Position numbers and translations under genes: made by a program. 64,000 nucleotides of DNA, taken from assembly GCF_001456935.1 (NCBI RefSeq), contig NZ_KQ758483.1, positions 744,001 through 808,000 of the forward strand, written 5' to 3'. Source of the stretch: [Bacillus] enclensis (GTDB lineage Bacteria > Bacillota > Bacilli > Bacillales > Bacillaceae_B). The notes beneath the pieces are model-generated. The model had not been told where the DNA came from. It was given only the letters and a program-made list of their open reading frames with translations, and did not search any database. Shown piece by piece: positions 57,381-58,725 of the stretch (its first letter is position 1; the number at the start of each line of letters is the position of its first letter).

Positions 57381-57923
57381 TTGATCATCATGCTGAATGG
57401 TGCGTTTGGTGCAGGAAAGACAACCGTTGCCGAGGGTTTATTAGAAAAAATTGATGATAGTATGTTATTCGATCCGGAAATAGTCGGATATATGTTAAGG
57501 TCCATGCTGCCGGAAGATATCAAACGTAATGAGTCTAAAAGCGGTGACTTCCAAAACTATGAACTTTGGAGAGTATTAACTGTGGATACAGCCAAGAGGT
57601 TGAAAGATAAATATGGTAAGCATCTCATTGTCCCTATGACACTGAGAGTCCCAGCGTACTTTACATATATCTTTAATGGCTTGAAAGAAATCGATGATGA
57701 AACACAGCACTTTTGTCTGCAAGCAAGCAGGAAGACAATATTTAAAAGGCTCAGGGACAGGGGGGAAGAAGAAGGGAACTGGTGCTTCCAGCAAACCGAA
57801 AAATGCCTGCATGCATATGAAGAATATGATTTTGGTGAGTATATTCAGACGGAGGATGTTGAAATCAATGAAGTAATCAGCAGCATAATGAAAAAATTGA
57901 ACACAACAAGTTTTCAAAAATAA
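57381..57923 (+). CDS. TmrB-like P-loop protein
   Basis: ATP-binding protein like the tunicamycin-resistance protein TmrB: Walker A NGAFGAGKTT near the start, FDPEIVGYMLRSMLP, LIVPMTL and FKRLRDRGEEEGNW closing. GGGGG places the start at TTG 57381, where LIIMLNGAFG matches TmrB; the ATG at 57375 is only two codons earlier. 180 residues. Resistance is not proven. Confidence 0.8.
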   Translation: MIIMLNGAFGAGKTTVAEGLLEKIDDSMLFDPEIVGYMLRSMLPEDIKRNESKSGDFQNYELWRVLTVDTAKRLKDKYGKHLIVPMTLRVPAYFTYIFNGLKEIDDETQHFCLQASRKTIFKRLRDRGEEEGNWCFQQTEKCLHAYEEYDFGEYIQTEDVEINEVISSIMKKLNTTSFQK

Positions 57924-57965
57924 GAAGAGGACAACCTTGACTTCAAGGTTGTCCTCTTCTTTTTA
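57922..57965. terminator. Bidirectional terminator
   Basis: AAGAAGAGGACAACCTTGA region with its near-perfect complement and a short loop; T-rich on both strands, at the end of the Spo0M-like gene too. Confidence 0.95.
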
Positions 57966-57966
57966 G

Positions 57967-58353
57967 CTAGGTGACAACTACGATCCAATCCTCGTCAAGG
58001 CTTTCAACCCCTTTATCAAACGTCAGCTTTGTTTTGAAAAGATAACGAATTCCGTTCTTTCCTGTTTGCAGCGTCTTAGGAATTCTATAGACAAAGTTAA
58101 GCCTGTTTGTTTCGTCTGGTGCTAAATCTTCTGATCTGTAAATCGTTGTTGAGTCGATGACCTTTTCTGTCGACTGTTTATCTACCATGATAAGATCACA
58201 GTCGATCCTCCGTACTTTTTGTTTTACAATCCCGCCCTTTAAAACGAAATACCCGTGAAGCAGCTCGCCGGGATAGAATTCTGTTTTCGGTAAGATTAAA
58301 TCAATCTTGGCTGAACCAACACCAAGCATGGAAGCATATTTTCTCAGTAACAT
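57967..58353 (-). CDS. Short Spo0M-like arrestin-fold protein
   Basis: Related to the N-terminal arrestin-like domain of Spo0M (SpoOM): KYASMLGVGSAKIDLILPKT, FYPGELLHGYFVLKGG, RRIDCDLIMVD, LNFVYRIPKTLQTG. Spo0M proteins have ~258 residues; this has 128, so it holds only the first domain. GGGGATG precedes the ATG, which overlaps the upstream FbpB-like gene by 10 bp. Controlled by an Mn2+ riboswitch. Confidence 0.82.
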   Translation of the reverse strand: MLLRKYASMLGVGSAKIDLILPKTEFYPGELLHGYFVLKGGIVKQKVRRIDCDLIMVDKQSTEKVIDSTTIYRSEDLAPDETNRLNFVYRIPKTLQTGKNGIRYLFKTKLTFDKGVESLDEDWIVVVT

Positions 58354-58484
58354 TCAGGCATCCCCTTTTGTGAGTCTGTGTGCTTTTGTTCCAAATTCTT
58401 TTCAATTACTCCCAGCTGTTTTTTATCGCGCATGATGTTTTCTTTATTATCCTGAATCAATTGTTGTAAACTTTTCTTAATCAA
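58344..58484 (-). CDS. FbpB-like small basic protein
   Basis: 46-residue frame from TTG at 58484, behind GAAAGGGTGG. IKKSLQQLIQDNKENIMRDK and KQLGVIEKNLEQKH fit the Fur-regulated basic protein B (FbpB) family pattern (L-x-x-L-x-x-x-N-K, D-K-x-x-L-x-x-I-E). FbpB assists iron-sparing regulation with a small RNA. Here the promoter and an Mn2+ riboswitch, not a Fur box, precede it. Family call is moderate because the protein is short. Confidence 0.6.
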   Translation of the reverse strand: MIKKSLQQLIQDNKENIMRDKKQLGVIEKNLEQKHTDSQKGMPECY

Positions 58485-58519
58485 GGTTTTCCACCCTTTC
58501 GCATTCGAGGTTGAGTATA

Positions 58520-58672
58520 TAAAAAGGACCTTTACCGAAAAGGTAAAGGTCCACTTGATGCATGTATCAACCTTCACCGGACGGTAAAGGTCTCGCTAAC
58601 AACGGTGTTGTCAATAAAGCCGAGAGCCAGGGCTCCGTATTGACGACTTTATTGTAAAAGCTACTCCCCTTT
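58520..58672 (-). ncRNA. yybP-ykoY Mn2+ riboswitch with terminator/antiterminator
   Basis: On the minus strand the aptamer begins AAAGGGGAGTAGC (58672 to 58660) and contains AAAGTCGTCAAT, CGGCTTTATTGAC and TAGCGAGACCTTTACC (ending near 58581), the conserved yybP-ykoY core. After it, GGTGAAGGTTGAT can pair with ATCAAgtggACCTTTACC (antiterminator), or GGACCTTTACC with GGTAAAGGTCC plus U5 (terminator). If Mn2+ closes P1, the 3' P1 strand is held and the antiterminator is free to form: an ON switch, as in known members. Confidence 0.92.
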
Positions 58673-58696
58673 AGGAGAATATGAAATTATGACTCT

Positions 58697-58725
58697 ATAG
58701 TACGAGCTCAGCGGCGAATTGTCAA
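58697..58725 (-). promoter_or_regulatory. Sigma-A promoter of the riboswitch operon
   Basis: Minus strand TTGACA (58720-58725), 17-bp spacer, TACTAT (58697-58702), 24 bp upstream of the aptamer. Confidence 0.8.

Follow-up and report, generated by a model that had tools for sequence, protein, structure and literature searches.

A P2-less yybP-ykoY-class leader as a probable Mn2+-responsive ON switch of FbpB-like and Spo0M-like genes in Bacillus enclensis and its relatives

Introduction

Which signal governs an operon that joins an FbpB-like gene to a Spo0M-like gene behind a leader of the manganese riboswitch class? The question is raised by a locus in a 64,000-nt stretch of the Bacillus enclensis genome, the whole of which is called the window here. 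A sequence-only reading of this locus had proposed that a single Mn2+ riboswitch ties manganese to iron sparing and to sporulation control. The targets named for the yybP-ykoY class include transporters and tellurium resistance, and the word Spo0M is absent from the main text of the paper that names them (PMC3766115). In a literature search covering open-licence papers, by which absence is unproven, we found no description of a yybP-ykoY leader with FbpB or Spo0M. The data presented below, drawn from the window and from related genomes, point to the recurrent aptamer-led pair, sometimes with terC, in many Bacillus-related families as an overlooked branch of manganese control.

Results

Overall organization of the operon

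The transcription unit lies on the minus strand, to which all window coordinates refer, and consists of a sigma-A-type promoter, an aptamer, a terminator, the FbpB-like ORF, the Spo0M-like ORF and an end hairpin, in that order. The promoter (58697-58725; -35 TTGACA, 17-nt spacer, -10 TACTAT) matches the consensus at 10 of 12 positions and is present where it had been claimed; promoter-like sites number 3 in the 64,000-nt stretch against 1.8 in shuffles, which puts the promoter match alone within chance, and the Rossellomorea leaders show by eye a similar hexamer pair at the same place. The aptamer (58583-58675) is a yybP-ykoY (Mn2+) aptamer in a P2-less three-way-junction form, assigned by a covariance score of 102.1 bits and by covariation. 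The 5' strand of its switch helix P1.1 (UAAAGG) occupies 58668-58673, and the 3' strand lies in segment B (GACCUUUACCG, 58582-58592), whose alternative partner is segment B' (GGUGAAGGU, 58570-58578). B' can pair either with B or, as an antiterminator, with terminator arm C. The intrinsic terminator C:C' (58526-58552) comprises 11 pairs followed by TTTTT; the 64,000-nt stretch holds 6 terminator-like sites against 0.7 in shuffles.

The FbpB-like gene (58344-58484) has a TTG start and encodes a small protein of 46 aa. The Spo0M-like gene (57967-58353) encodes a single-domain protein of 128 aa, and its ATG (58353) lies inside the FbpB-like coding sequence with an overlap of 10 bases. A terminator hairpin of 18 pairs (57922-57961) ends the operon.

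Additionally, a CUCC-UAAA-GGGGAG hairpin at 58664-58677 overlaps P1.1 and L1 and is conserved in most Rossellomorea leaders; it could be a further competing fold.

Class membership of the leader

The sequence-only reading had named the Rfam covariance model as the check on its riboswitch. The leader misses that mark: a scan of the window at the gathering score of RF00080 (45 bits) gave no match, and by E-value the model aligned to 58566-58681 at 31.5 bits (E 1.3e-6 in 1001 nt). We calibrated RF00080 on the E. coli mntP and alx leaders, both reported to be Mn-sensing riboswitches (PMC9603457). The mntP leader scored 41.6 bits, also below gathering, and the alx leader was not found at E<=0.01. 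Since one known member misses the cut-off and the other is not found, the cut-off is too strict to decide membership, and refutation by the Rfam cut-off alone was dropped after this calibration. The same model, run on 19 Spo0M-led loci, let none of them pass gathering; nine leaders scored 25-39 bits, nine escaped detection at E<=0.01, and at L113 the match was only to its other aptamer.

We built a covariance model, R1, from the leaders of Spo0M-like genes. R1 matches the window at 58583-58675 with 102.1 bits, a score obtained with the window's own leader in the seed. It finds the E. coli alx leader at 43.9 bits (E 2e-8) but, at a threshold of E<=0.01, not that of mntP, and it has a match at E<=1e-6 in 360 of 397 genomes of the order.

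Aptamer core and covariation

The L3 motif GUCG[U/A]CA, which lies outside the search pattern, is present in all 109 aptamers. This motif carries the invariant Mn-contacting adenosine, A41 in L. lactis, whose N7 touches Mn2+ (PMC6754395). The L1 sequence GGGGAGUAGC is present in the window leader; since the aptamers were picked with a pattern that included L1 and the 3' GC..AGACC strand, the invariance of both in relatives is a selection effect and gives no independent count. Covariation was assessed on 77 of the 104 distinct aptamer sequences. In this alignment 96.5% of cells are paired and 17 of 28 pairs show double changes, with 182 double-change cells against 47 in shuffles, and none of 500 shuffles reaches any of the five covariation measures. 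Specifically, double changes occur in 2 of 6 pairs of P1.1, 13 of 14 of P3 and 2 of 5 of P4, while P1.2 never varies and is uninformative on covariation. Chance match as an explanation was excluded by alignment, covariation and gene order.

The leaders differ from the full Rfam architecture in one respect. In all 102 distinct leaders of Spo0M-like genes the GUAGC-to-GUCG spacing is 10-12 nt, too short to accommodate P2; in the B. enclensis genome itself, the terC leader L001 has 22 nt at this place, scores 59.3 bits with RF00080 and passes Rfam. Most other terC leaders came through the P2-less model, and their short spacing is partly selection. The claim of a full yybP-ykoY aptamer thus holds for the class core and the covariation and fails on helix P2, which is missing. 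The four commonest L3 forms account for 84 of the 102 leaders before Spo0M-like genes and also for 16 of 22 terC-first leaders; the L3 form of the window, CAAUACG, is absent from those 22. Rossellomorea and other relatives carry a leader of the same kind upstream of the Spo0M-like gene.

Expression platform

The calculated duplex energies in the window leader are -4.4 kcal/mol for P1.1, -13.2 for B:B', -10.8 for B':C and -17.8 for C:C'. The pairings B:B', B':C and C:C' compete with one another, and B is additionally engaged in P1.1. Across 104 leaders the median energies of B:R and R:C, the counterparts of B:B' and B':C, are -16.9 and -13.9 kcal/mol against -4.4 and -4.0 in shuffled controls, and the two pairings are at least 4 kcal/mol better than the shuffle mean in 102 and 101 of the 104 leaders, respectively. 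A hairpin with a T-run within 160 nt follows 103 of 107 leaders (raw count). These data uphold the mutually exclusive terminator and antiterminator helices proposed from the sequence, as competing pairings in the window that are conserved across the 104 leaders.

In L. lactis, P1.1 is the switch helix and its 3' strand passes straight into the terminator (PMC11087558). For the window leader, the minimum-energy fold retains the C:C' terminator when P1.1 is forced, and the unconstrained minimum-energy fold contains B:C' and B':C helices; free-energy folding alone did not yield the ON state. Because energy folding with P1.1 forced retains C:C', antitermination would have to be kinetic.

Two leaders, L026 and L027, show by eye two tandem hairpins after the aptamer, each followed by a T-rich run, and B:B' itself therefore resembles a first terminator.

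Genes behind the aptamer in related genomes

We examined 129 Spo0M-like genes (30 + 19 + 80 from genome searches, among the matches listed), which encode 124 distinct proteins. A gene was called aptamer-led when an aptamer lay within 900 nt upstream on the same strand. L002, L034, L035 and L036, being the same places as L004-L007, were dropped before counting; L058, missed by the pattern, was counted as aptamer-led on its R1 match alone, and L113, whose reading frame contains a stop, was counted unchanged. An additional related-locus search gave three relatives, all at places also found by the genome searches.

An aptamer stands upstream of 108 of the 129 genes, in 19 families; these counts are of related genomes rather than independent events, with families taken by family number. 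At 68 of the 108 aptamer-led loci an FbpB-like gene lies between the aptamer and the Spo0M-like gene, so the gene pair of the window, which was to be sought in relatives, is recurrent and widespread. terC lies downstream of the Spo0M-like gene at 30 of the 108, and no terC was found within 900 nt at the other 78; in the window terC lies outside the operon. The 108 divide into 47 with the FbpB-like gene only, 17 with FbpB-like and terC, 10 with terC only, 4 with Spo0E-like and FbpB-like genes (3 of these with terC) and 30 without any of these. At 4 loci the TerC genes were confirmed by Pfam. The 21 Spo0M-like genes that lack an aptamer are all without a neighbouring FbpB-like or terC gene, and an R1 scan of these 21 found no aptamer either.

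The association between gene and leader is also seen within the genus. Of 23 same-genus genomes (G000-G022), 21 have the Spo0M-like gene, each beside an R1 leader of 99-107 bits. The remaining two, G004 and G011, have neither this gene nor this leader; their best Spo0M-domain match is a 35-36% paralogue, and their R1 matches (51.5 and 54.2 bits) are distant from their Spo0M-domain genes. When the aptamer label is mapped onto the Spo0M tree, 6 changes are counted, and none of 500 shuffles gives fewer than 14, but the leaderless genes do not form a single clade.

These distributions bear on whether the leader is a relic, that is, a terC leader duplicated before unrelated genes with its switching lost. 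The low Rfam score would suit such an origin, as would the presence of terC leaders, L001 and L003, at other places in the B. enclensis genome, but covariation, platform pairings and gene order are conserved over 19 families, and gene and leader are jointly absent in G004 and G011. We regard a relic as very improbable.

Two further samples were taken from the aptamer side. In L138-L167, the best R1 matches of 30 genomes, the region up to 1000 nt behind the aptamer holds an FbpB-like gene in 15, a Spo0M-like gene in 13 and a TerC-profile match in 12, and a Spo0E motif occurs within 600 nt in 2; with leaders of Spo0M-like genes as its seed, R1 biases this sample towards Spo0M. L168-L207 were picked from R1 matches away from Spo0M loci and are uninformative on Spo0M frequency. 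FbpB-like genes are also found behind the aptamer without Spo0M.

The Spo0M-like protein

The Spo0M-like protein of the window, described beforehand as short and single-domain, indeed consists of 128 aa and matches PF07070 at 60 bits (cut-off 23), over profile positions 2-134 of 213. Its nearest named relative, in Rossellomorea aquimaris, is 93% identical. Against the solved Spo0M structure (5cl2; 252-residue chain), the family profile aligns to residues 4-128 (E 1.3e-19). The protein thus has PF07070 in common with Spo0M and corresponds to one domain, the N-terminal half, of that two-domain protein; by the full-length criterion it is not a Spo0M. We take this part to be one domain of the arrestin-type fold. 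Unlike Spo0M, it is encoded in a riboswitch-led operon, and its gene is separate from four more Spo0M-domain genes in the genome, all of which lie away from the three aptamers found there.

The sporulation link of the sequence-only reading derives from the name Spo0M, and the match covers the N-terminal half only. It could be recast as a circuit in which the riboswitch would signal the Mn2+ sufficiency needed for sporulation, and commitment would be tuned through the Spo0M-like protein and, in relatives, through Spo0E-like phosphatases. Spo0E-like genes (PF09388, above cut-off) do lie between the aptamer and the FbpB-like gene in L029, L045, L067 and L079, and in L148 and L180 they follow an aptamer where Spo0M is missing, and the match to the N-terminal half of Spo0M is consistent with such a role. 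We nevertheless judge this circuit clearly unlikely: the Spo0E motif occurs at only 4 of the 108 aptamer-led Spo0M-like loci (a motif search that can miss some), terC is the commoner partner, the protein corresponds to one domain of a two-domain protein, and the other four Spo0M-domain genes of the genome stand apart from its aptamers.

The FbpB-like protein

The presence of an FbpB-like gene behind the aptamer was borne out by its position and conservation and by PF13040, which the protein matches at 38.7 bits (Pfam cut-off 25). The same protein scores 30.8 bits with the NCBIfam FbpB equivalog NF033227, below its cut-off of 60. A second PF13040 gene of the genome has the better PF13040 score (60.2 bits), lacks an aptamer and likewise fails the equivalog (31.4 of 60 bits). 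Because the PF13040 proteins of this genome fail the FbpB equivalog, FbpB function is not transferable by name.

We sampled 71 PF13040 loci, comprising the 30 best scorers, the own-genome locus L238 and 40 chosen ones, among the matches listed. An R1 aptamer was present at one of the 71 (L271). At least five listed PF13040 entries beside R1 matches (in G059, G102, G121, G136 and G039) fell outside the chosen 40, and 1/71 is a low estimate because the list favours high scorers and entries beside known aptamers were left out.

FbpB of B. subtilis is a Fur-regulated small basic protein, and upstream regions were therefore scanned for Fur boxes (173 entries, some places twice; 161 distinct). A box at 3 mismatches was seen at 2 of 89 distinct aptamer-led FbpB-like places, with a better box at none of the 89, and a box at 3 or fewer mismatches was seen at 7 of 72 other FbpB-like places; shuffled upstream sequence contained such a box in 174 of 3460 cases, which leaves the scan little power to discriminate. 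This weak scan gave no support for a second input through Fur. In summary, the window protein has the PF13040 domain in common with FbpB but fails the equivalog and stands behind a Mn riboswitch leader with no good Fur box seen. The iron-sparing link, which derives from the family name FbpB, is not supported as stated, given the equivalog score, the second gene without an aptamer and the few Fur boxes.

A yybP-derived variant responding to another divalent ion, e.g. Fe2+, would fit FbpB-like genes at 68 of the 108 loci as well as the aptamer-led FbpA-family domains of L168 and L186, and yybP variants for other divalent ions are expected (PMC7266159). However, all 109 aptamers retain the Mn-contacting adenosine, terC-first leaders show the common L3 forms too, and by sequence these leaders form no class distinct from the terC leaders. 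A different ion is accordingly an improbable choice, and we retain Mn2+ as the ligand in what follows.

Discussion

Together, our results favor a model in which transcription from the sigma-A-type promoter would produce a leader that folds as a P2-less yybP-ykoY Mn2+ riboswitch. At high Mn2+, docking of L1 with L3 would stabilise P1.1, which would sequester segment B and leave B' free to pair with C, giving readthrough and hence a transcriptional ON switch. Without Mn2+, B would pair with B' and the C:C' terminator would form. The output would be the FbpB-like small protein and the single-domain Spo0M-like protein, with terC next in many relatives. For the RNA part, a Mn2+-responsive ON leader of the operon is likely, on the strength of class membership judged by core and covariation. 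At the sequence level, the model draws on the aptamer core, the covarying helices, the terminator, the conserved alternative pairings and the conserved downstream genes.

The presence of terC at 30 of the 108 loci points to manganese handling. TerC proteins metalate exported enzymes; work on B. subtilis connects them with Mn2+ and places meeY behind a Mn riboswitch (PMC10550928). Both small proteins might then be accessory to Mn2+ handling around TerC-type proteins, perhaps modulating metal transporters or helping to set how exported proteins are loaded with metal. We therefore consider a Mn2+-ON operon of TerC-linked accessory proteins the probable reading, in which the Mn2+ ligand, the docking and the ON direction are inferred. 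Of the Mn2+ control first proposed, the yybP-ykoY-class leader over both genes stands and the iron-sparing link is unsupported in the form given; the terC link had been missing.

The leader has much in common with known members of the class (RF00080; L. lactis yoaB, E. coli mntP and alx, B. subtilis meeY (ykoY)), namely the L1/L3 core with its invariant adenosine, the P1.1 switch helix, the terminator platform and terC among the linked genes. It differs in lacking P2, in its Rfam score below cut-off and in its first genes, which are FbpB-like and Spo0M-like. A further parallel may be E. coli MntS, a tiny protein under Mn control that is likewise associated with Mn handling; in contrast to the proposed ON operon, Mn represses MntS rather than inducing it. 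Two protein families whose names refer to iron sparing and sporulation stand behind a manganese-class leader that is conserved across 19 families, and the score cut-off conceals such leaders from routine annotation. As an entry point to the roles of FbpB-like and single-domain Spo0M-like proteins, the arrangement directs attention to manganese homeostasis and to TerC.

Spo0E- and FbpA-family genes occur behind the same aptamer, which would fit a wider regulatory reading. The P2-less Mn2+ riboswitch of Bacillales might head a distributed regulon of FbpB-like, FbpA-domain, Spo0E-like, Spo0M-like, DUF1232 and TerC genes that would pass Mn2+ status to iron use and the sporulation decision, beyond Mn2+ export. 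We hold this extension to be rather unlikely.

Additional observations at related loci

Aptamer-led proteins with a C-terminal FbpA-family domain (PF13076; 30.7 and 31.6 bits, respectively) are encoded in L168 (380-754, plus strand) and L186 (2174-2542, minus strand), and both show an apparent signal peptide by eye. DUF1232 proteins precede terC in the aptamer-led operons of L140 (2291-2563) and L200 (2322-2591), where PF06803 was confirmed, and DUF1232-like proteins, recognized by eye only, precede terC in L148, L158 and L185. Tandem aptamers occur in L105 (602-1207) and L107 (603-1208; L166 is the same place as L107). In L166 the first aptamer leads to a small DUF1232-like ORF, again by eye, and the second to the fbpB-spo0M pair. 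Between the aptamer and the Spo0M-like gene of L095 (960-1281), a unit of about 52 nt recurs, each copy showing the same short ORF pattern. Finally, a sodium/calcium-exchanger-type protein (L206, 353-1348) and a CNNM/CorC-type protein (L153, 1795-3096) are encoded behind the aptamer, and these are possible further metal transport targets.
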